DNA from: Emticicia aquatilis
GTDB lineage: Bacteria; Bacteroidota; Bacteroidia; Cytophagales; Spirosomataceae
Assembly: GCF_014644295.1 (NCBI RefSeq)
Contig: NZ_BMKK01000011.1
Coordinates: 124,001 to 188,000, forward strand
Reading direction: 5' to 3'
DNA: 64,000 bases
A program made the translations under genes and the position numbers. This document shows positions 5,581 through 52,709 of this stretch, piece by piece. The notes below the pieces were generated by a model. That model saw only the letters and a list, made by a program, of their open reading frames with translations. It was not told where the DNA came from and made no database searches. Position 1 is the stretch's first letter. Each line of letters opens with the position of its first letter.

Positions 5581-5936
5581 TGTTTATAGTATTAAAGGTG
5601 AAAAATGATAGTGCAAATAAATCTTGTAATAATGATATTGAATGTCATTTTTCTGCTGTCATGTACCACTTTTCTGTCAACTGATTGCACTATTCTATAT
5701 TCAATTGTACTATCCTATCAATTTGCAGTGTTGGGGCTAATTTAGATAGTTATATTTTTTGTGGAAATAATAATATTAGGTAGGTTTGTTTAGAGTATGC
5801 AATACCTGAGAAACTGCTGATGAAAAGTATCACGTAGGGATTAAATATTGGTAGAAAGAAAAACACCACAATTAACCTGATGCCGTTAGGTATCAAACTT
5901 ATTGAATACATGTATCACCAGTAAAAAGCCGATAAT
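5581..5936. other. Intergenic region between aldehyde dehydrogenase and AraC regulator
   Basis: About 356 bp that must hold both divergent promoters and the regulator's binding site. It has no coding potential. The right half contains one copy of the dispersed two-hairpin repeat. I could not pick out a convincing AraC operator. Confidence 0.5.
5831..5896 (+). repeat. Dispersed two-hairpin repeat, copy 1
   Basis: Contains ACGTAGGGATTAAATATTGG followed by TAGAAA, then about 30 bases, then the small hairpin GATGCC-GTTA-GGTATC. The same layout recurs near 35.4, 37.4, 56.0 and 63.2 kb. This copy lies in the AraC leader, so it would be transcribed. Confidence 0.7.
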
Positions 5937-6857
5937 ATGATTAATCTAAATACATCTCATTACGAAAGCCGTAAGCTGGTAAGTTTGGTCGAAAACCGAA
6001 CTGTTCATACACTTAATAGTGCCGAACTGAATATTTTCGAGACACACCAACAAGCATCGCAGGTAATGCTTCGATTCAGCGAACCAGTATTGGCCAGTAT
6101 GATAAAAGGTAAGAAAGTGATGCACTTAGAAAACACCCATTCGTTCGGTTTTTTGCCAGGTGAGTCGGTGATTTTACCTTCAAACGAACTGATGTGCATT
6201 GATTTTCCTGAAGCTGCCGAGTATAATCCAACGCAGTGTTTGGCTTTAGCTTTTTCGGAAGAAAAATTGTGTGAAACAGTAGAATTATTGAATAACCGAG
6301 GCACCAAACAAAACGGCAAAGAATGGAGCATGACAGACTATAATTATCATTTCACAAATGATGTAGCCATTAATCAGATTCTCCAACGCCTAATCTTTAT
6401 TTTCGCTGAAAAACACCCTTCAAAAGATATTTTTGCCGATTTACTGATTCAAGAATTGATTATCAGAATCCTGCAAACAGAATCGAAAAGTATTTATCTG
6501 AAAAAAGCTCAACACGACTCGAATAACGACCGTATTTCGTTCATTATCAAATACATACAAGATAACATCACCGAAGATTTATCAGTAGAATTGTTGAGTG
6601 AAAAAGCTTACATGAGCGAGTCGAATTTTTATAGAACCTTCAAGCACGAACTTGGTTCATCGCCCAATGATTTTATTATTGAAGAACGCCTAAAAGTTGC
6701 CGAAAGCATGCTCCGAAATCCTAAAGTGAGCGTAAAAGAGGCTTATATGGCGAGTGGTTTTAATAGTTTTTCGTATTTCTGCCGAATCTTCAAGAAAAAG
6801 AAAAATCTTTCACCGACTGAGTTTAAGGAAAAAGCGAGTGTGATGAAAGCTAAATAA
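5937..6857 (+). CDS. AraC family transcriptional regulator
   Basis: A 306-residue regulator. The N-terminal part resembles the AraC_N ligand domain found in regulators of alcohol and aldehyde genes. The C-terminal ~100 residues form the AraC double helix-turn-helix: ISFIIKYIQDNITEDLSVELLSEKA... then SESNFYRTFKHELGSSPNDFI, then VKEAYMASGFNSFSYFCRIFKKKK. The gene is divergent from the aldehyde dehydrogenase-DUF779 pair, the arrangement expected for its activator. A GC-rich hairpin follows the stop. The inducer is unknown. Confidence 0.92.
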   Translation: MINLNTSHYESRKLVSLVENRTVHTLNSAELNIFETHQQASQVMLRFSEPVLASMIKGKKVMHLENTHSFGFLPGESVILPSNELMCIDFPEAAEYNPTQCLALAFSEEKLCETVELLNNRGTKQNGKEWSMTDYNYHFTNDVAINQILQRLIFIFAEKHPSKDIFADLLIQELIIRILQTESKSIYLKKAQHDSNNDRISFIIKYIQDNITEDLSVELLSEKAYMSESNFYRTFKHELGSSPNDFIIEERLKVAESMLRNPKVSVKEAYMASGFNSFSYFCRIFKKKKNLSPTEFKEKASVMKAK

Positions 6858-6860
6858 AAA

Positions 6861-6882
6861 GAGGGGAGATATTTCCCCCCTC
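6861..6882. terminator. Intrinsic terminator between convergent genes
   Basis: GAGGGG pairs with CCCCTC across an A/T-rich loop, right after the AraC stop codon and before the convergent esterase gene. It probably works in both directions. Confidence 0.7.
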
Positions 6883-6916
6883 GGCAGTTAGTTATGGATG
6901 CGTAGTAATTAATATT

Positions 6917-7786
6917 TTACAGATATTTATCAGCAAATTCAAGCATTTTATCAAGTGTTTCGGATATTTTCCCCCATTCGTGGTATTGCTCAGGATAAAA
7001 ATGGTACTCGTGTTTGCTACTCATTTCCTGAAGTTTCTGCTGCATTTTTTCTCCTTGTTCGGGTGGTACAGTCGTATCGCTTCCGCCATAAAATAAAATA
7101 GTAGCAGGTGATGTTTTTCTTATCTGAAATACTGGGCTTGCCGAGCGATATTCATCAATGGTTTCCTCACTAAAAGGTTGCCCGACGAGCTTAATAATAT
7201 CGTTGTTCATGCGTCCTTGTCGGAGTCGCTCAGAAGTTAAATCTGCTGGACTCGAAATTCCGCCCACAACCTCCACCAAGTTTTTATTATCAGCCGTATA
7301 TGAGTAGAGCATTGCCAGATGTCCACCCGCACTAATACCTAAAAGGAAGAATTTTGGCGTAATATTGAGCGATTTAGCATCTTTTTGTAATTTTCTTAGC
7401 AATAAGCCAATATCTTCTATTTGCTGCTGATAGGTGATTCCTTTCTGAAAAGTGAGTCTGTAATTGGCGTTAACAATCGCACATTTGGTGCGTTTTTGTC
7501 GGAGATTCTCTACAATCGGATTAATAAAACCCTTATCCCCTTCGCTCCAACCTCCACCGTGGAGTAATACAATTACGGGTACTTTAGTAGGCTGATTTTT
7601 AGGTAAATAAATGTCATAGTTTTGGAGTTCATTATCTCCGTATTTCTCATTTTTCTTTACCTCGTATTCGATGTCAACCGATTCTTCACCCCGAATCGAG
7701 TAATTTTTATTAAATAATGGCACAACATCAATGCTATCGCAGGAACTTAGCAACAGCATAAATCCGATAATAAAATAGGTTCTCAT
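6917..7786 (-). CDS. Lipoprotein alpha/beta hydrolase (carboxylesterase, BD-FAE type)
   Basis: A 289-residue lipoprotein: hydrophobic N terminus ending in the lipobox LLSSC. It carries the alpha/beta hydrolase signature VIVLLHGGGW (oxyanion hole), nucleophile elbow GISAGG, an acid in YGGSDTTVP and a C-terminal His in YHEWG. The family includes secreted esterases that remove acyl groups from plant polysaccharides or small esters. It is on the opposite strand to the AraC gene and co-directional with the small barrel protein upstream (70 bp). It probably acts in the periplasm or on the outer membrane. The substrate is unknown. Confidence 0.88.
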   Translation of the reverse strand: MRTYFIIGFMLLLSSCDSIDVVPLFNKNYSIRGEESVDIEYEVKKNEKYGDNELQNYDIYLPKNQPTKVPVIVLLHGGGWSEGDKGFINPIVENLRQKRTKCAIVNANYRLTFQKGITYQQQIEDIGLLLRKLQKDAKSLNITPKFFLLGISAGGHLAMLYSYTADNKNLVEVVGGISSPADLTSERLRQGRMNNDIIKLVGQPFSEETIDEYRSASPVFQIRKTSPATILFYGGSDTTVPPEQGEKMQQKLQEMSSKHEYHFYPEQYHEWGKISETLDKMLEFADKYL

Positions 7787-7855
7787 GGTTTTAGTTTTAT
7801 ATAAATCATTTTATAAATACAGATTTACGAATGATTAACGGTTGAATTTATATGG

Positions 7856-8335
7856 CTATTTGATAGCAATACGGGCGGTAACAGCTACGTCGTCGAGCCA
7901 TGCTCCTTGATAGCCAATCAGATTGATGGCGGGTTTCCAGTCAAGACTTAAATTGAGCGGAATTTCTCGAAAAGTATATTCAAGGCCTAAAATTCCGTCG
8001 GCACCAATAACCGTATGATTGTCGTTATTATCAAACCACGGATTGCCATATCTACCTCCATTTCGCCAAAAACCTACGTGGCCACCAACGCCGTAGTACC
8101 AACGCCAGTTGGGAGTCTGAAATGCCGCTTTGTGGATTTCATAAAGCCCCGTAACGTTTATTCCTTGCCACCTCGAATACAAAATACCTTCAACTGCTTC
8201 TTTATTATTCATTTTATATTTTACGCTCAGGCCATAGCCGTAGTTGAGCCTTGCACCTATACCCAATTTATATTGGGCTTGAGCGGTTGTTAGAGAAACA
8301 ATAATCAGAAAAAGACCTACTATTATTTTTTTCAT
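7856..8335 (-). CDS. Small outer-membrane beta-barrel-like protein
   Basis: A 159-residue protein with a clear signal peptide ending TTAQA-Q. The mature part shows alternating aromatic and small residues, several G-x-G-x-R/Y strands (KLGIGARLNYGYGLSVKY) and a C-terminal strand ending in VTARIAIK, as in small outer-membrane barrels of the Bacteroidota. Its shape is that of an 8-strand barrel. It has no recognised enzymatic residues. Function unknown. It is probably transcribed ahead of the esterase. Confidence 0.8.
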   Translation of the reverse strand: MKKIIVGLFLIIVSLTTAQAQYKLGIGARLNYGYGLSVKYKMNNKEAVEGILYSRWQGINVTGLYEIHKAAFQTPNWRWYYGVGGHVGFWRNGGRYGNPWFDNNDNHTVIGADGILGLEYTFREIPLNLSLDWKPAINLIGYQGAWLDDVAVTARIAIK

Positions 8336-15270: not shown

Positions 15271-15300
15271 TTTGTTTCTTTCGTTTCATCATTACATTTG
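15271..15300 (+). promoter_or_regulatory. Bacteroidota-type promoter of the TPP-riboswitch operon
   Basis: TTTG at 15271-15274 and TACATTTG at 15293-15300 with an 18-base spacer fit the TTTG/TAnnTTTG promoter of this phylum. Transcription would start near 15307, just at the 5' side of the riboswitch. Confidence 0.65.
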
Positions 15301-15306
15301 TAGCAT

Positions 15307-15390
15307 ATTTCATGCACGGGGTGCTTTAAAAAGCTGAGATGATACCCGAGAACCTGAACTGGTTAGTACCAGCGTAGGAATGCAGGAGCC
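15307..15390 (+). promoter_or_regulatory. TPP riboswitch (THI element)
   Basis: The conserved THI-box core is unmistakable: GGGGTGC, then GCTGAGATGATACCC, then GAACCTGAACTGG, a short loop, and CCAGCGTAGGAA. Paired P1 strands TGCA occur at 15313-15316 and 15381-15384. It binds thiamine pyrophosphate and normally lowers expression of downstream thiamine genes. An intrinsic terminator about 65 bases downstream is the likely output. Confidence 0.97.
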
Positions 15391-15449
15391 AAACAAGATA
15401 TTCGGGAGGAATAGCCTTTGGTGCTTTGCCTTTTTCTATATACGTTTTG

Positions 15450-15496
15450 AAACCTCATTTCGAACATTCGGTGCAGAAATGAGGTTTATTTTTTTA
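15450..15496 (+). terminator. Riboswitch-controlled intrinsic terminator
   Basis: Perfect 12-bp stem, AAACCTCATTTC (15450-15461) with GAAATGAGGTTT (15476-15487), 14-base loop, then ATTTTTTTA. It ends 12 bases before the methyltransferase start, so it must be read through for any operon expression. Confidence 0.92.
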
Positions 15497-15507
15497 TCAA
15501 AACTACT

Positions 15508-16233
15508 ATGGAAGAATTAGAACTAAGCGAAAAAAGTTTGGTAAAGCCGCCACTCCGAAATTGGCAAGGCCGAAAAGAATGGTTTTTTAACCGTGAACAC
15601 ACCGATACCTACGAACTTTGGTACGAAGGCCGTTACAAACGAGCCGAAGTATGGCAAAAGAAAATTATGGGTAGATTCGTAAAATCTGACCCAAGAATAA
15701 AGACACTTCTCGAATTTGGCTGCGGCACGGGCCGTTTTACTCGCTGGTGGAAAGAAATTGGCATTGATGCCTCGGGTGGCGATATTTCGCCTTTTATGCT
15801 GGGGCAGGCCGTACATCTTTTTGGCGGAAACTTAGTTTGGGCCGATTCTCACTTTATGCCTTTCAAAGACCATACTTTCGATGCCCTTGCGTTTATCACA
15901 ACCTTTGAATACTACCGAGACCCCGTGCAGGTGATTCGAGAAGCCGCCCGAGTAGGTAAATACGGCATTGCCTTTGGCATGATGAATCGGAATTCGCCAA
16001 AAGTAGTCCGACGAAGAGTGCAAGAAGCCTTTGGCAAAAATCCGTTTTATGTAACTGCTACTTTTTATACGCCTGATATGCTTACCCGAAAAATCCACGA
16101 AGCACTCGAAGGGCGAAGCTATACCATTGAGTGGCAAGCAACGGGCTTACCCGAATGGTTTCCTGTGCAAGAATGGCACGTACCTTACGGCGATTTCTTT
16201 GGTTTATTCGTACGCTTCAATGATGTGGACTGA
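15508..16233 (+). CDS. Class I SAM-dependent methyltransferase under TPP control
   Basis: A 241-residue cytoplasmic protein. The SAM-binding motif I is LLEFGCGTGRFTRWW (about residues 67-82), followed by an acidic ribose-binding residue in ASGGDISPFML and motif II/III region HTFDALAFITTFEYYRDP. The C-terminal third is rich in aromatic residues and probably holds the substrate. It is of the UbiE/methyltransf_11 type. It is the first gene after a TPP riboswitch and its stop TGA shares one base with the next start. The last gene of the operon encodes a Trm112-like protein, the kind of zinc partner known to activate several methyltransferases. The methyl acceptor is unknown; a thiamine-precursor or salvage role is inferred only from regulation. 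Confidence 0.88.
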   Translation: MEELELSEKSLVKPPLRNWQGRKEWFFNREHTDTYELWYEGRYKRAEVWQKKIMGRFVKSDPRIKTLLEFGCGTGRFTRWWKEIGIDASGGDISPFMLGQAVHLFGGNLVWADSHFMPFKDHTFDALAFITTFEYYRDPVQVIREAARVGKYGIAFGMMNRNSPKVVRRRVQEAFGKNPFYVTATFYTPDMLTRKIHEALEGRSYTIEWQATGLPEWFPVQEWHVPYGDFFGLFVRFNDVD

Positions 16234-17285
16234 TGGAAAAAGTAGGAAAAATCAACGAAGAATATTTCAAAAGAGTGATTCTGCCGAATAGCGGTTTTAG
16301 TCGAAAAGAAGTATTGGTTGGCCCAAATTTTGGCGTTGATGTGGCACTTATTGAGCTACCCAATAATATGGCAATGGCTCTTACTTCCGACCCTTTGAGT
16401 CTGATTCCGACTTTAGGATTGCAGGAGTCAGCGTGGCTTTCGGTGCATCTGATGGCCAATGATATTGCCACTACCAGTTTTTCTCCCATGTATCTACAAA
16501 CTGTGCTGAATTTACCGACGAATATCAGCGATGCTCAGTTTAGAGAATATTGGCAACACATTGATAGCTTTTGTAAGCAAATAGGCGTAGCAATTACGGG
16601 CGGACATACAGGTAGTATTGAAGGACAAAATTCGACTATTTCGGGCGGGGGAACTATGATAACGGTTGCTCCCAAAAAACGGATACTCACCTCAAATAAT
16701 GCCCAAGTCGGAGATTCAATCATCATGACCAAGCAATGTGCGATGTCATCGGTGGCTATTTTGGCTATGTCTTTTCCCGAAACTATTCGTCAGAAATTAG
16801 GTGCCGGAACAGCTCAAAAGGCAGCCGAATTATTTTACGAAACCTCAGTTTTGAAAGAAGCCTCGCTTGTCAATCAGTTAAATACACAAGAAAATGTCGT
16901 GAATGCCATGCACGATGTTACTGAAGGAGGTGTATTGGGTGCGGCCTTCGAAATGGCTGTTGCAAGCGGTTTAGGCCTCGAAATAGAAGTTGATAAACTC
17001 AATGTTTCGCCTACGGTGAGTGCTGTTTGTGAAGTATTTTCGCTCGACCCTCATTATTGCATTGGAGCTGGTTCGATGATAATTTCGGTTAAAAATCAAT
17101 ACGAAGATTTGGTAATCAATACTTTGCGAGAAAACGCTATTGAAGCCCATGTAATTGGGAGTTTCACTGAGGCATCGGCTGGGCATAGAATCATTGAAAA
17201 TGGTGAAATAAAACCAATGCCTTACTACGAAACCGACCCTTATTGGTCGGCATTTTTTGAAGCATTTAAACGTGGTTGGAAATGA
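16233..17285 (+). CDS. AIR synthase (PurM/HypE/ThiL superfamily) related ATPase
   Basis: A 350-residue protein of the PurM superfamily. It has VGPNFGVDVALIEL in place of the Gly-Asp-Asp ATP/metal motif, HLMANDIATTSFSPMYLQTV (the family's V-N-D-[IL] dimer segment), AITGGHTG, and a C-terminal domain with MHDVTEGGVLGAAFEMA. The match is closest to HypE-like 'AIR synthase-related' proteins. ThiL, which phosphorylates thiamine phosphate, belongs to the same superfamily, so a kinase or ATP-dependent activation step in thiamine metabolism is possible, but the ThiL GDDAA signature is not kept. It overlaps the genes on both sides (1 and 4 bases), showing tight translational coupling. Confidence 0.85.
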   Translation: MEKVGKINEEYFKRVILPNSGFSRKEVLVGPNFGVDVALIELPNNMAMALTSDPLSLIPTLGLQESAWLSVHLMANDIATTSFSPMYLQTVLNLPTNISDAQFREYWQHIDSFCKQIGVAITGGHTGSIEGQNSTISGGGTMITVAPKKRILTSNNAQVGDSIIMTKQCAMSSVAILAMSFPETIRQKLGAGTAQKAAELFYETSVLKEASLVNQLNTQENVVNAMHDVTEGGVLGAAFEMAVASGLGLEIEVDKLNVSPTVSAVCEVFSLDPHYCIGAGSMIISVKNQYEDLVINTLRENAIEAHVIGSFTEASAGHRIIENGEIKPMPYYETDPYWSAFFEAFKRGWK

Positions 17286-17893
17286 AAAAAAGTATTTATC
17301 TCATCGCCGACCCCGCCATCGAGCAAAGCGTTTTGCTCCATAAAATCGAGATGGCTCTCAAAGGTGGTCTTTTTGCCGTGCAGTTGTGGAATAACTGGCA
17401 AAATGTGGCCAATAAAATCGAAATTATTGCAAGCATTCATCAACTTACGCAATTGGCTGGCGTGCCTTTGATTTTAAACGAAGGCCAAGATTGCCTTGAT
17501 TTACCTTATTTTGAAGGTATTCATCTTGATTTGCCCAATGATAAAATACAAGAATACCGACAAAAACGCCCCAATTTAATTTGGGGACTTACCTGCTCAA
17601 ACGAAACCGAAAAACTTAGTTGGGCTGAGCAAAATTCGCTCGATTATGTGTCTTATTGTTCGGTTTTTCCATCAAAAACCAGTAATAGTTGCGAACTCGT
17701 CAGCTTCGAGACTATTCAGAAAACTCGTCAGTTTTTTAGTAAAAAAGTATTTTTAGCAGGAGGAATTAATCAAAACACAATTCCAAATCTTAAAAATTTA
17801 TCATTCGATGGCATTGCTTTGGTATCAGCCATTATGGATGCCGAGAACTCAACCGAAGTAGTATTGAATTATTCAGCAGTTTTAAACGATTAA
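17282..17893 (+). CDS. Divergent thiamine phosphate synthase-like protein (ThiE/TenI family)
   Basis: I use the ATG at 17282, which overlaps the previous stop as ATGA (203 residues). The fold is clear: GGLFAVQLW, AGVPLILNEGQDCLDL, FEGIHLDLP, LIWGLTCSN, LDYVSYCSVFPSKTS and VFLAGGINQNTI follow the ThiE strand order of the TIM barrel. Several active-site signatures differ. QLRxK becomes QLWNN, the ND metal site becomes NE, HLGQ becomes HLDL, and GPxFxTxTK becomes CSVFPSKTS. It may be a ThiE with altered chemistry or a TenI-like non-synthase relative. TPP control and operon position keep it in thiamine metabolism. Confidence 0.8.
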   Translation: MKKSIYLIADPAIEQSVLLHKIEMALKGGLFAVQLWNNWQNVANKIEIIASIHQLTQLAGVPLILNEGQDCLDLPYFEGIHLDLPNDKIQEYRQKRPNLIWGLTCSNETEKLSWAEQNSLDYVSYCSVFPSKTSNSCELVSFETIQKTRQFFSKKVFLAGGINQNTIPNLKNLSFDGIALVSAIMDAENSTEVVLNYSAVLND

Positions 17894-17897
17894 AGTC

Positions 17898-18164
17898 ATG
17901 ACCAAAAGTTTTTTTGATAAACTATGTTGCCCCTTTGATAAATCTGAACTTTCGATTCAGGTTTTCACCGAAAAAGAAAATAATGTCATTCATGAAGGGC
18001 TCATTACTTGCCCTACATGCAAGCGTTTGTATCCAATCATTCACGGAGTGCCGATTATGATACCCGATGCTTACCGTGAGGCTCAACTCGAAAAACCATT
18101 TTTTATCAAGTGGAATGATAAATTAAGTCTGGAAGCAAAAGCCAGTTTGATGCTGGAAGAATAA
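17898..18164 (+). CDS. Trm112-like zinc-ribbon protein
   Basis: An 88-residue protein with the Trm112 layout: a first Cys pair in LCCPFDKSEL, then LITCPTCKRLYPIIHGVPIMIPDAYR, giving the usual C-P-x-C zinc site and the conserved YPI-x-x-GVP-x-M tail. In other organisms Trm112 proteins bind and activate class I methyltransferases acting on rRNA, tRNA or proteins. Here it sits four bases after the ThiE-like gene in an operon that starts with a class I methyltransferase, which suggests the two form a pair. A terminator follows. Confidence 0.88.
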   Translation: MTKSFFDKLCCPFDKSELSIQVFTEKENNVIHEGLITCPTCKRLYPIIHGVPIMIPDAYREAQLEKPFFIKWNDKLSLEAKASLMLEE

Positions 18165-18284: not shown

Positions 18285-19955
18285 ATGAAAAAACTACACG
18301 TGCTCTTTATGCTCATGGCTGTGTATCAGCTGAGTTTTGCACAAAAAACAACTATCCAAATAGATTTAAATAAAAAAGTTGGCAAGATGTCAACGATGTG
18401 GGCGTGGTTTGGTGCCGACGAACCCAATTATGCCTATATGAAAGATGGCAAAAAATTGCTTACAGAATTAAGTCAGCTGAGTCCAGTACCTGTTTATTTT
18501 AGAGCCCATAATATGCTTACTTCGGGACACGATACGCTTTCAATGAAGTGGGGTTCGACCAATGTTTATACCGAAGATGCCAACGGCAAACCAATTTATG
18601 ACTGGACGCTTGTCGATAAGATTTTTGATACTTATCAGCAAAGAGGCATCAAGCCAATGGCACAATTTAGTTTTATGCCCGAAGCTCTTTCTACCAAACC
18701 ACAACCTTATGAGCATAATTGGAAACCAGGCATGAATTATACCGAAATCTTTAAAGGGTGGACGTACCCGCCAAAAGACTATAAAAAATGGGCCGATTTA
18801 GTTTATGCGTGGGTAAAACACTCGGTTGAAAGATACGGCAAAGCCGAAGTTGAAAGTTGGTATTGGGAACTCTGGAACGAACCAAACATTGGCTATTGGA
18901 GCGGAACGGTAGAAGAATATTGTAAACTCTACGATTATACCGCTGATGCCGCCCAACGAGCTTTGCCAACCATCAGAATAGGCGGCCCCGAAACGACTGG
19001 CCCAAGTTGGAATAAAGCGGCCGATTTCTTGAAAACTTTTCTAACTCACTGCGAATCAGGCACTAATTACGTAACGGGCAAAGTGGGTTCGCCGCTCGAT
19101 TTTATCACTTTTCATGCCAAAGGAGCTCCAAAAGTTGTGGATGGACACGTACAAATGAACGTAGGTACGCAGCTGCGAGATATTTCGGAAGGTTTCCGAA
19201 TAGTTACTTCTTATCCGAAATTTAAAAATTTGCCCATCATCATTGGCGAGTCTGACCCCGAAGGCTGTGCGGCTTGTGGCATGAAAACCAATCCATCAAA
19301 TGCGTATCGAAACGGCACAATGTATTCAAGTTATACGGCTGCTTCGTTTGCTCGAAAATATGCTTTGGCCGATTATTTCAAAGCCAATTTATTGGGAGCA
19401 GTGAGTTGGTCGTTTGAGTTTGAAAACCAACCGTATTTTTATGGTTTCCGAGATTTAGCCACCAATGGCATTGATAAACCCGTGCTGAATGTTTTTAGAA
19501 TGTACGGTATGATGTCGGGCGATAGGGTAGAGGTAAAAGGCAATCAGAATTATACGTTTACGATGGTGCGAGATTCGAGCGTACGTAAAAAAGCCGATAT
19601 TGATGCCCTTGCGAGCAAAGACCAACACTCGGCGGCGGTAATGGTTTGGCATTATCATGACGATGACCTAAAAGCCGAAGATGCCACAATCGAAGTTGAT
19701 ATAAAAGGTTTTCCTACCCAGCAAGTCAATTTTAAACATTACCGAATCGACAACGAAAATAGTAATTCGTACGAAGTTTGGAAGAAAATGGGTTCGCCCG
19801 AAAGTCCAACTGCCGAGCAAATCAGCATCTTAGAAAAAGCAGGGCAGTTGGCTTTGCTCACCTCGCCAAGCTATGTAAAAACTACCAATGGAACGCTAAA
19901 GTTAAATTTCAAATTACCTCGCCAAGGAGTTTCGTTATTGAGGTTTGATTGGTGA
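18285..19955 (+). CDS. Secreted glycoside hydrolase family 39-like enzyme
   Basis: A 556-residue protein with a signal peptide ending LSFAQ. It is a clan A TIM-barrel glycosidase of the GH39 (beta-xylosidase / alpha-L-iduronidase) type. The acid/base Glu is in YWELWNEPN, about residue 205, and the nucleophile Glu in LPIIIGESDPEG, about residue 326. The C-terminal ~140 residues are a beta-sandwich. It probably trims xylose- or uronic-acid-containing glycans in the periplasm. A TATATTTG -7 element at 18249-18256 lies 28 bases before the ATG, so it has its own promoter. Confidence 0.88.
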   Translation: MKKLHVLFMLMAVYQLSFAQKTTIQIDLNKKVGKMSTMWAWFGADEPNYAYMKDGKKLLTELSQLSPVPVYFRAHNMLTSGHDTLSMKWGSTNVYTEDANGKPIYDWTLVDKIFDTYQQRGIKPMAQFSFMPEALSTKPQPYEHNWKPGMNYTEIFKGWTYPPKDYKKWADLVYAWVKHSVERYGKAEVESWYWELWNEPNIGYWSGTVEEYCKLYDYTADAAQRALPTIRIGGPETTGPSWNKAADFLKTFLTHCESGTNYVTGKVGSPLDFITFHAKGAPKVVDGHVQMNVGTQLRDISEGFRIVTSYPKFKNLPIIIGESDPEGCAACGMKTNPSNAYRNGTMYSSYTAASFARKYALADYFKANLLGAVSWSFEFENQPYFYGFRDLATNGIDKPVLNVFRMYGMMSGDRVEVKGNQNYTFTMVRDSSVRKKADIDALASKDQHSAAVMVWHYHDDDLKAEDATIEVDIKGFPTQQVNFKHYRIDNENSNSYEVWKKMGSPESPTAEQISILEKAGQLALLTSPSYVKTTNGTLKLNFKLPRQGVSLLRFDW

Positions 19956-35521: not shown

Positions 35522-37000
35522 TTACTTCAACCGAATACTATAAGCCTGAATCAAAGGTGGGTTTTCGGGCGACATCGTGAAGCTTACTTCGATATTTCCT
35601 TTTTCTCCTTCCATCAAAAACTTACCTCTTAGTGCATTTTCGGCTACAATTTCGTGGACTTTTATGATTTTTCCTGCTTTCTCAAAAACTCCTTCGGCTT
35701 CGGCTTTCAAAAGGTCTGGGAAATAATCTAAAAAGAAATTTTCGGCAAAAATGCCCGATTTTTCAGCATTTTCCCACGCAGGAAGTAGTTTTACCAATTC
35801 ATTTTGGCGTTGTTTCAAAATTGGTGAAACTGGAAAAGCAATAGGTTTAAGACCTGCTTTTTCGACAATAAATGGCAAAATCTGATTATTCATCAAAGCC
35901 GCACCGCCGTAAGTTCCGTTGGTAAAAGTTACGATTCCTACACCATAATTTGGCAATATTTTCCAGTCAGAGCCAAAACCTGGGAGTCCGCCCGAATGCC
36001 CAACACTCGTAATTTGGTTGCAGTTTTTGTCGATACGCAAGCCGTAGCCATAAAACGCAACATTCGTGCATGGCTCGCCCGCACCTGTGTAGCCACGGTT
36101 ACTTAGGCTATTGAAATTCCACGGAAAGTGCATTTCTTTGAGCGAACTCTTTTTCAGAATTGACGAGTTTGGCGAACCAACTTGATAGGCCGCTTGGTGA
36201 AGAGCCATGTATTTGGCAAAATCTTCGATGGAAGTCAGCACGCCGCCCATGATTCCGTACGCACCGTCGGGTTCGATGGGTTGCTCGATGTATTGCTCAC
36301 GCAACCAACGGTAGCCCCTAACGAGTTGATTATCTGGCACTTTCGTATAGTCCCAATAGGTATTTGTCATGCCGAGTGGCTTCCAAATTTTGTTGATGAT
36401 ATAGCTTTGGTAGCTTTGTCCCGACACAGTTTTGATGATTTGCCCCAACATCGCAAAGCCCATATTACTGTATTCGTAGGCAACGCCTGGCTCGTTGGAA
36501 AACGAAATGCCTTTTTTAAACATCTTCAACATAGTTGCTTCCGAAATACCCAGTTGGCGGTCGCCCCACGGATTGTCTTCGGGGAAACCCGCTGCGTGCG
36601 AAAGCAAATGACGCACCGTAATTTCGGGCGAATCGGGTGAATATTTTTGTCCTTTCAGTTCGGGAATATATTTCCAAACTGGGTCGTCGAGTTTGATTTT
36701 TCCTGCATCACGTAGCTGTAAAATCGCTACCGATGCAAAGCTTTTCGACATCGAAGCAATGCGATAAACCGACTGATTATCAGCGGTTTTGTTGGTTTTG
36801 TAATTGACAATTCCGCTATTGCTCTGATAAATAATTTTGCCATCAAGCACCAAGGCATACGCCACACTCGATAAATGACTTTTGACCTTAAAATCTTGAA
36901 ATTTAGCATCAAGTTCGGGAATCAATGCCTTGATTTTATCTTCGGTGCTTTGAGCAAAAAGATTTAGGCTGAGAAGTAAGAGAAGGATTAGTTTTTTCAT
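35522..37000 (-). CDS. Secreted class C beta-lactamase-like serine hydrolase
   Basis: 492 residues with a signal peptide (to LNLFAQ). The penicillin-binding/class C fold shows the SxxK motif in RIASMSKSFASVAIL, YSN in YEYSNMGFAMLG, and HSGG in SVGHSGGLPGFG. A C-terminal beta domain of about 100 residues follows. Such proteins are peptidases, esterases or cell-wall hydrolases; true beta-lactamase activity is not implied. It is convergent with the DUF1080 gene, with the repeat pair between them. Confidence 0.92.
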   Translation of the reverse strand: MKKLILLLLLSLNLFAQSTEDKIKALIPELDAKFQDFKVKSHLSSVAYALVLDGKIIYQSNSGIVNYKTNKTADNQSVYRIASMSKSFASVAILQLRDAGKIKLDDPVWKYIPELKGQKYSPDSPEITVRHLLSHAAGFPEDNPWGDRQLGISEATMLKMFKKGISFSNEPGVAYEYSNMGFAMLGQIIKTVSGQSYQSYIINKIWKPLGMTNTYWDYTKVPDNQLVRGYRWLREQYIEQPIEPDGAYGIMGGVLTSIEDFAKYMALHQAAYQVGSPNSSILKKSSLKEMHFPWNFNSLSNRGYTGAGEPCTNVAFYGYGLRIDKNCNQITSVGHSGGLPGFGSDWKILPNYGVGIVTFTNGTYGGAALMNNQILPFIVEKAGLKPIAFPVSPILKQRQNELVKLLPAWENAEKSGIFAENFFLDYFPDLLKAEAEGVFEKAGKIIKVHEIVAENALRGKFLMEGEKGNIEVSFTMSPENPPLIQAYSIRLK

Positions 37001-51068: not shown

Positions 51069-52709
51069 TTAATTCACTCTGAGAAATTTAACTCGTTGAA
51101 TTCTATCACTACTTAGAAACAACGTAGAGTTGTTGTCAATATCGAATACGTAATTATCTACTAATAGTTTGGTTGGAGAGATTAAAAGCCCTTTTGTGCT
51201 ATTTTTATCGCCTATTTTCACTTCATAGCTTTTATCGCTGATAAATTTAATCTCAACGCTTACATTGGTTTCTGAGTTAATAAATTTACCCTTAAGTGCT
51301 TGATAATTAAAGCCTTTCCAATCATAAATGTGCTTTGTCAGTGTATAGGGGGAGTGAGAGGTATAATAAGCAGTTACTGTCATTTCTCCTTTTCCGTTCT
51401 TTTTAAATTCTTGCTTAAAATCAGGGTCGAAGGTTTGGTGCAAGATATTATCAGCTTCACGTTCTAATTTTACGTCGTTGCGTCCGATACGTTTTAAATA
51501 CAAAATACTATCTCGTTTTTCAAACTGAAAAGTAAAATTGTCATCTGTTTGATAGAGTCCAATCATATCTTCTTCGCTTACAAAATTGCCTATTTTAGTC
51601 GGTTTTGTGACTAAATAAGTATCATTACTTTTTAGATTAAAAACCACATCGGCCATTTGGCGTGTTTGTGTATTTGGAGTGGCTTTGCCAGTATTCGTGA
51701 GGGTAACAATTGAAGTATTTTTGCTTTGAAATCTAATAACTGTTGCTTTCCAAGCTCCAGTTGCTCCTTCATGAAATGTATAATTTAAGCCTTTGTAAGT
51801 GCTAAATTCAAGTCCGTAACCATAATTTTTGATGCTCGAATAATCGGTTAATTGTTGGCTTTTTTCTATAATTTGTCTTTTTATATCGCATTTTACTTGG
51901 CCTTGAAGAATTTGCTCCCATCTGATTTGGTCTGCCAGTGTCGAAAAAATATTGCCGTCGCCATAAACATTCCAAATCCAATTATAATTTTTCCAAGTAT
52001 CAAAGTTGAAATAAGCCTTCGCAATTGGCCCACGGATTTTTGTATAATCGTCTTCAAAAGAAGTGTTTGGCATGTTTAATTTTCTGAATAAATCATTCGT
52101 ATAGGCAACAAATGACTTTCCTGTAACTTTTTCAGTAATCATCGCCAGCAGTATGTAGTTCGTATTGCTATACAAATATTTGGTGCTGGGTTTGAAATTT
52201 AATTCTTCTTGTTTTTCTATCAGCCTCAAAACATCTTTGTTGCTAAATGTATATTTCCACCAAGTAAAGCCTTGCAATGACCATAAATCATACACATCTC
52301 TGATACCGCTTGTGTGAGTAAGTAAATTTTCGATGGTAATCTTGGAATTTATTTTCGAGTAAATAGTCGGCAAATATTTCCTTATATCATCAGTGAGTTT
52401 GATTTTTTTCTCGTCAATCAAAACAAGAATCGCTAAGGCTGTAAACTGTTTGCCATTTGAAGCGATATTAAACCGTGAATCTTTCGTGATTAAAGTGCTG
52501 TCTTTTAAGTCGGCGAAGCCCGCAACTTTTTCATAAATTATCTGTCCATTGCTTACAATGCCAGTTGCAATTCCTGGAGCATTTTTGGGTACATCTTGTG
52601 TAGCAATTTCCTCAAGGCGTTTTATTTGAGAAACTGTAAGGCTGTCTGGCTTTTGACCAAACAAAATGGTGGTTGATGCAAAAAAAAGTGTCAGTACGTA
52701 TAATTTCAT
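51069..52709 (-). CDS. Secreted beta-lactamase-like serine hydrolase
   Basis: 546 residues with a signal peptide (to LFGQ). The class C fold shows SxxK in FNIASNGKQFTALAIL, YSN in YLYSNTNYILL, and a C-terminal beta domain with AYYTSHSPYTLTKHIYDW. The third HxG-type motif is weaker than in the enzyme at 35522. Peptidase, esterase or cell-wall functions are possible. It lies 67 bp downstream of the membrane AraC regulator on the same strand. Confidence 0.9.
   Translation of the reverse strand: MKLYVLTLFFASTTILFGQKPDSLTVSQIKRLEEIATQDVPKNAPGIATGIVSNGQIIYEKVAGFADLKDSTLITKDSRFNIASNGKQFTALAILVLIDEKKIKLTDDIRKYLPTIYSKINSKITIENLLTHTSGIRDVYDLWSLQGFTWWKYTFSNKDVLRLIEKQEELNFKPSTKYLYSNTNYILLAMITEKVTGKSFVAYTNDLFRKLNMPNTSFEDDYTKIRGPIAKAYFNFDTWKNYNWIWNVYGDGNIFSTLADQIRWEQILQGQVKCDIKRQIIEKSQQLTDYSSIKNYGYGLEFSTYKGLNYTFHEGATGAWKATVIRFQSKNTSIVTLTNTGKATPNTQTRQMADVVFNLKSNDTYLVTKPTKIGNFVSEEDMIGLYQTDDNFTFQFEKRDSILYLKRIGRNDVKLEREADNILHQTFDPDFKQEFKKNGKGEMTVTAYYTSHSPYTLTKHIYDWKGFNYQALKGKFINSETNVSVEIKFISDKSYEVKIGDKNSTKGLLISPTKLLVDNYVFDIDNNSTLFLSSDRIQRVKFLRVN

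Follow-up and report, generated by a model that had tools for sequence, protein, structure and literature searches.

We analysed a 64,000-nucleotide stretch of the Emticicia aquatilis genome (contig NZ_BMKK01000011.1, positions 124,001 to 188,000; hereafter the window), which contains a four-gene operon behind a thiamine pyrophosphate (TPP) riboswitch. All features of the operon lie on the forward strand. The riboswitch aptamer (THI element, 15307..15397) matches RF00059 at 66.4 bits (gathering threshold 54.3), the single Rfam match above gathering within the window. An intrinsic terminator at 15450..15496, recognised by sequence and fold, forms the expression platform, with a 12-bp stem, a 14-nt loop and a T-rich tail. 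The stem is perfect: 15450-15461 pairs with 15476-15487, followed by ATTTTTTTA. Folding of 15440-15505 gave -20 kcal/mol (z -5.3), and 1 of 200 shuffled sequences was equally good. Because the aptamer precedes the terminator, TPP is expected to repress the operon.

The first gene (15508..16233) encodes MT, a class I S-adenosylmethionine (SAM)-dependent methyltransferase of 241 aa (PF08241). It overlaps by 1 base with the gene for AIRS (16233..17285, 350 aa; PF00586 and PF02769), an ATP-dependent enzyme of the PurM/HypE/ThiL/SelD superfamily. The third product, ThiE', is a ThiE-like TIM barrel of 203 aa when read from its ATG (17282..17893), which gives a 4-base overlap with AIRS; an alternative in-frame TTG lies upstream at 17276. 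After a gap of 4 bases follows a Trm112-like zinc-knuckle protein of 88 aa (17898..18164; PF03966, 30.8 bits, cut-off 22). All four products exceed their Pfam cut-offs (Methyltransf_11, AIRS with AIRS_C, TMP-TENI and Trm112p). The THI element, the terminator and the four tightly packed genes described in an initial annotation of this DNA, made from the sequence alone, were thus confirmed.

To place the operon among other genomes, an alignment of MT was scanned against the genome contigs of 84,980 species. The scan found 235 relatives, and the best 80 were kept as loci, a selection that leans to close relatives. Each of the 80 loci kept has MT, AIRS, ThiE' and Trm112 on one strand and in this order; among the carriers are Emticicia, Runella, Pedobacter, Algoriphagus, Pontibacter and Chryseobacterium. 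In one locus (L065, on the same contig as L026) the contig end falls inside Trm112, the start of which is visible. A covariance model built from 13 aptamers of related operons (one of the 80 loci, L133, is the contig of its training row L027) gave exactly one match directly upstream of MT in every locus (E <= 0.01), and no second match at this threshold was found across the 1.41 Mb of the 80 loci. In their flanks, no gene family was common to more than 9 of the 80. Since the gene order and the upstream riboswitch recur in every locus kept, the arrangement exceeds chance. The initial annotation had named conservation beyond this genome as what the unit would stand or fall by, and the unit stands.

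Searches with AIRS gave a consistent picture. Among the genomes of 38 relatives, the window's own included, close copies were found in 3, all of the same genus (3 of its 11 genomes), and 13 of the 395 genomes drawn from the phylum, again counting its own, contained AIRS at E <= 1e-20. In 14 other copies of the operon (L025-L038), MT, AIRS and ThiE' always occur in this order, and Trm112 comes next in 13; the one exception is L026, in which Trm112 is cut by the contig end. The upstream TPP aptamer was detected in all 15 operon genomes, above gathering in 14 and at 47.8 bits in the last one (G106). In two distant relatives ThiE' and Trm112 are separated by about 370 and 530 bases (L035 5963-6335 and L036 5740-6267). 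The MT of Emticicia sp. CRIBPO (L072 9001-9711) is 87-88% identical to the Mucilaginibacter and Pedobacter copies versus 80% to the window copy, which points to exchange between families.

ThiE' has the TIM barrel of the ThiE kind, but the pyrophosphate/Mg residues of ThiE (R59, K61, D93, D112 and K159) are largely replaced. R59, K61, D112 and K159 are kept in none of 95 alignment rows and D93 in 7, while Q57, the pyrimidine Gln, is kept in 95/95 and N92 in 87/95. All seven residues are kept in 5/5 canonical ThiE proteins of the same family. Compared with ThiE of B. subtilis (2tps/3o15), ThiE' has Trp in place of Arg59 (95/95 rows), lacks Lys61, Asp112 and Lys159, and gains Cys126 and Cys137, both invariant in the 95 rows. 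The window protein scored 92.3 bits on the equivalog model of ThiE (TIGR00693, cut-off 145.1), versus 185.9 and 216.7 bits for canonical ThiE of the family. Without its pyrophosphate/Mg residues, ThiE' should not perform ordinary hydroxymethylpyrimidine pyrophosphate (HMP-PP) chemistry; its expected ligands are a pyrimidine and a partner carrying phosphate, not HMP-PP. The description of this protein as a divergent ThiE was therefore right as to family and fold but too mild as to the active site. TenI is another member of the ThiE superfamily without the pyrophosphate residues, and it acts with ThiG, which supplies its substrate. ThiE' is not a TenI thiazole tautomerase by the model NF005819 (43.9 bits, cut-off 251); it matches TenI more weakly than ThiE (48 versus 96 bits), and no ThiG to feed a TenI was found in the 15 operon genomes.

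MT is the most conserved of the four proteins, with a median pairwise identity over 94 rows of 0.77, compared with 0.55 for AIRS, 0.50 for Trm112 and 0.42 for ThiE'. The window MT is 66-75% identical to 12 alignment rows from outside the genus. Its match to Methyltransf_11 (54.6 bits, cut-off 21.2) and the glycine-rich GCGT motif place it among class I SAM methyltransferases; GCGT and EWFFNR occur in 95/95 rows. The Trm112-like protein matched Trm112p (PF03966) at E <= 1e-3 in 14/14 members. The signature [CD]Px[CD]x19-36Cx2C, given for an archaeal subfamily in a review (PMC5372719), is found in 93 of 94 rows, the exception being L129. As an archaeal methyltransferase partner of the NF038101 type the protein was rejected (56 bits, cut-off 77). 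In searches of the Protein Data Bank (PDB), weaker matches of the MT profile included BUD23 (6g4w_q) and 6f5z_A, and the Trm112 profile found chains 6g4w_r and 6f5z_C of the same entries. Moreover, the Spearman correlation of distances was highest for MT and Trm112 (0.72), versus 0.29 to 0.57 for the other five pairs. This is as expected for a complex, and shared descent contributes to it. The known Trm112 holoenzymes (BUD23, Trm9, Trm11 and Mtq2; 6f5z) likewise combine a small zinc-knuckle protein with a class I methyltransferase, but their targets are tRNA, rRNA and a release factor, whereas the neighbours here are thiamine genes. According to the same review, nothing was known in 2017 about the function of bacterial Trm112 (PMC5372719).

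AIRS shares the AIRS and AIRS_C domains with ThiL, HypE, SelD and PurM, and its motifs GGHT and HDxTEGG occur in 94/95 and 93/95 rows. However, the window protein reaches the cut-off of none of the NCBIfam models that it matches. It was rejected as ThiL (TIGR01379, 74.9 versus 184.15 bits), as HypE (TIGR02124, 92 versus 251.6 bits) and as SelD (TIGR00476, 64 versus 125 bits). HypE has a Cys near its C-terminus, whereas 94/95 AIRS rows have no Cys among the last six residues. The genome of the window encodes its own HypE and SelD above cut-off and its own ThiL, as well as a PurM-like protein of 107 bits (below the cut-off of 236.35) and a 1251-aa AIRS frame read as PurL by its length. ThiL above cut-off was found elsewhere in all 30 genomes searched, including 15/15 operon genomes, so AIRS is not a ThiL replacement; the initial annotation had noted that PurM-superfamily ATPases include ThiL. 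In five other places (G239:C50:363312, G144:C1:892877, G399:C1:705124, G285:C1:918982 and G187:C6:3920), AIRS_C matches lie in frames of 338-390 aa, each broken within the matched stretch by a single in-frame stop, the kind of which varies.

To figure out which thiamine genes accompany the operon, the 15 operon genomes were compared with 15 further genomes, related at the level of genus, family, order or class. Neither thiC nor thiG was found in any operon genome, versus 2/15 comparison genomes for each. Every operon genome has exactly one TMP-TENI protein at E <= 1e-6, the ThiE' of the operon, and the comparison genomes have one in 5 cases, two in 2 and none in 8. A ThiD-family match at E <= 1e-10 was full length in 1 operon genome (G285), partial in 5 and absent in 9. 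Within the genus, the operon and a canonical ThiE exclude each other: of the 11 genomes searched, 3 carry the operon and 4 a canonical ThiE, none has both, and the remaining 4 have neither. In the phylum draw, thiC was found in 138/395 genomes (136 above cut-off) and in 0/13 operon genomes, which has p of about 0.004 if the two traits were independent. In one genus (g37), thiC was found in five drawn genomes and not in the operon genome G312. Four genomes of the window's genus (G005, G007, G009 and G010) keep ThiL, with no ThiE-family gene, thiC or thiG found, which suggests the use of imported thiamine monophosphate (TMP).

Relatives without the operon show what it may replace. In the same genus (L042) and family (L041), thiM-thiE-thiD-tenA sets with a canonical ThiE lie behind a TPP riboswitch; in L041, TenA runs off the end of the locus (123.6 bits, cut-off 130). 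Both kinds of operon have an upstream riboswitch and a single ThiE-family gene, and neither thiC nor thiG was found in the host genomes of either. They differ in that the known set has ThiM, ThiD and TenA where the new one has MT, AIRS and Trm112, and in that its ThiE is above the TIGR00693 cut-off with the pyrophosphate/Mg residues kept. The new operon is not itself a canonical salvage operon pairing ThiD with ThiE: ThiD is not among its four genes, and a full-length ThiD occurs elsewhere in 1/15 genomes. Because the operon is the only ThiE-bearing locus found in its genomes, thiC and thiG were not found, ThiD was mostly not found, and the ordinary salvage operon is excluded in the genus, the simplest view is that it does the job of the salvage operon by other chemistry. 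We tentatively favour, at somewhat less than an even chance, a TPP-repressed alternative module that would make TMP from scavenged precursors in place of thiM-thiE-thiD-tenA. The idea of a TPP-controlled branch of thiamine metabolism or salvage, put forward in the initial annotation, is thus supported by the constancy of the unit, by the missing thiC and thiG and by the sole ThiE-family gene in 15/15 genomes.

A working scheme can be drawn from the protein families. When TPP is scarce, the terminator would be relieved and the four proteins made. MT and Trm112 would bind each other as a SAM-dependent holoenzyme, and AIRS, as an ATP-dependent enzyme, might act with it to activate the pyrimidine and/or the thiazole part. 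AIRS (with ATP) and MT-Trm112 (with SAM) would in this way take over the ThiD and ThiM steps, in either assignment. The ThiE' barrel, with its pyrimidine Gln and phosphate-binding end, would then join or process the parts without pyrophosphate/Mg chemistry, possibly using Cys126 and Cys137 in catalysis, and the product would be converted to TPP via the ordinary ThiL of the cell. The substrates and the order of steps are read from sequence only. In a bolder version, SAM would take the place of pyrophosphate in a new thiamine pathway, for activating or building the pyrimidine or thiazole: MT-Trm112 would make a methylated intermediate (e.g. one with a sulfonium or a quaternary ammonium as its leaving group), AIRS would add an ATP step, and the Cys-bearing ThiE' would form thiamine phosphate without HMP-PP. 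We regard this version as rather unlikely and offer methyl transfer as leaving-group chemistry as a proposal; if true, it would give a bacterial Trm112 a role on a small molecule.

Several results weigh against the alternative salvage module. Thiamine pyrophosphokinase was found in 14/15 operon genomes (24/30 overall), and one or more additional TPP sites were detected in each operon genome at E <= 1e-3, several of them below gathering. In the 14 operon genomes fetched (G004 was left out), the extra site precedes a gene of 705-843 aa in each case, and six of these genes were scanned: all have a TonB plug domain and 5/6 the receptor barrel too. In the genome of the window, the second TPP-like site (L003 5585-5683, 49.6 bits, below gathering) lies ahead of a TonB receptor (5702-8068; G000:C13:177584-), and in G355 another TPP site precedes a PnuC-family gene (PF04973). 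Because of the pyrophosphokinase and the second TPP site before a receptor-like gene, import of thiamine is probable. Imported thiamine thus probably suffices for the carriers of the operon, and making thiamine need not be its role. In addition, G285 has its full-length ThiD. The best PDB matches of the MT profile (1vlm, 3l8d and 1ve3) are uncharacterised or other methyltransferases and, judging by their names, not Trm112 partners, and the predicted structure of MT was poor (predicted local distance difference test score, pLDDT, 62.8). The searches of operon genomes covered thiC, thiG, TMP-TENI, ThiD, ThiL, thiamine pyrophosphokinase and TPP sites. The exclusion of thiC is confounded by the descent of both traits and is a hint only. 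In a study of leaf strains, ThiC and ThiG were present in every one of 21 thiamine prototrophs and missing from most of 14 auxotrophs (PMC9666465). Within that sample, this speaks against complete synthesis in the absence of the two enzymes.

Other explanations must be weighed against this module, and they differ in how they treat ThiE'. The operon could repair or recycle damaged thiamine or thiamine phosphate: AIRS would use ATP to re-activate, for example, a form that is oxidised, deaminated or ring-opened, ThiE' would bind a whole TMP-like molecule, and MT-Trm112 would methylate. PurM-superfamily enzymes activate amide or formyl oxygens, ThiD would not be required, and a barrel that keeps the pyrimidine Gln without the pyrophosphate/Mg ligands is as expected of a product binder, not an HMP-PP binder. 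The probable import of thiamine also fits. However, genomes with thiC would benefit from repair as well, whereas thiC was found in 0/13 operon genomes of the phylum draw, and methylation has no clear place in known thiamine damage, so we hold repair to be unlikely. If ThiE' were instead still a thiamine phosphate synthase, working on HMP-PP from an unrecognised kinase (possibly AIRS) with MT-Trm112 only modifying or protecting a precursor, the loss of R59, K61, D112 and K159 from all rows, its low TIGR00693 score beside those of canonical ThiE, and the lack of any ThiD-family match in 9/15 operon genomes would be hard to explain. Such ordinary coupling seems quite unlikely. De novo synthesis, in which MT-Trm112 and AIRS would build a ring or its methyl group from common metabolites and ThiE' would finish the product, is very unlikely in our view. 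It would suit the missing thiC and thiG and the unusual constraint on MT (0.77, versus 0.42 for ThiE'), as demanding enzymes can be so constrained, and PurM and PurL, which are related to AIRS, use ATP to put ring atoms in place. But four proteins are few for two rings, thiamine uptake is seemingly retained, and the leaf-strain prototrophs, 21 in number, all had ThiC and ThiG (PMC9666465).

The two remaining explanations concern the methyltransferase. Methyltransferases known to work with Trm112 have tRNA, rRNA or a release factor as substrates (PMC5372719), and the MT profile matches BUD23, so MT-Trm112 might modify RNA or protein and share the operon for regulation only. ThiE' and AIRS, however, accompany the pair in every one of the 80 loci kept, and the TPP riboswitch precedes the set each time, which makes this explanation highly improbable. 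An antivitamin or thiamine-analogue system, for synthesis or detoxification of compounds like bacimethrin or methoxythiamine under TPP control, deserves the least credence. It has a precedent in the Paenibacillus thiaminase I/bacimethrin operon, the only TPP-controlled operon with a methyltransferase found in the literature searched, where a TPP riboswitch, thiE and a SAM methyltransferase also occur together (PMC5627462), and a freshwater cyanobacterium releases such antivitamins (PMC12345177). The genes listed for the Paenibacillus operon, however, also include thiM, thiD, a glycosyltransferase, a thymidylate synthase, a Nudix hydrolase and thiaminase I, and AIRS and Trm112 are not among them (PMC5627462). 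Thymidylate synthase, glycosyltransferase, thiaminase I and a kinase are all missing from our four genes, no flanking family recurs in more than 9 of the 80 loci, and the distribution of the operon tracks the absence of thiC and thiG. The operon is therefore not of the thiaminase I/bacimethrin type.

The Paenibacillus case also qualifies the statement, made in the initial annotation, that no TPP-controlled unit of this composition had been described. There, thiE and a methyltransferase gene already share a TPP-controlled operon, with other genes that differ; for the four-gene unit the statement holds within the scope of the search, as no description turned up among the titles and abstract starts listed from the open-licence PubMed Central literature. 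A report on Bacteroidetes lists biosynthesis genes, OMthi and pnuT-tnr3 as TPP-regulated, and its main text nowhere uses the word methyltransferase (PMC5613172). The four genes are thus apparently an unstudied way, involving a methyltransferase, to finish or salvage vitamin B1 in many Bacteroidota without the usual synthesis genes. Without ThiC and ThiG as searched, the operon genomes would be scored as simple thiamine auxotrophs despite a dedicated TPP-controlled set. Should the operon produce thiamine from a precursor, vitamin dependence may be mispredicted for more than 200 genomes (the 235 with an MT relative, the full gene set having been checked in the best 80), and microbes may be exchanging a new vitamer. 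The operon further offers a thiamine-phosphate-synthase fold stripped of pyrophosphate chemistry, and it suggests what a bacterial Trm112 may do and with which partner.

Elsewhere in the window, a glycoside hydrolase family 39 gene (18285-19955, 197.7 bits) lies downstream of the operon, and two proteins at 35522-37000 and 51069-52709 belong to PF00144, the Pfam Beta-lactamase family, which also includes ordinary esterases and peptidases.

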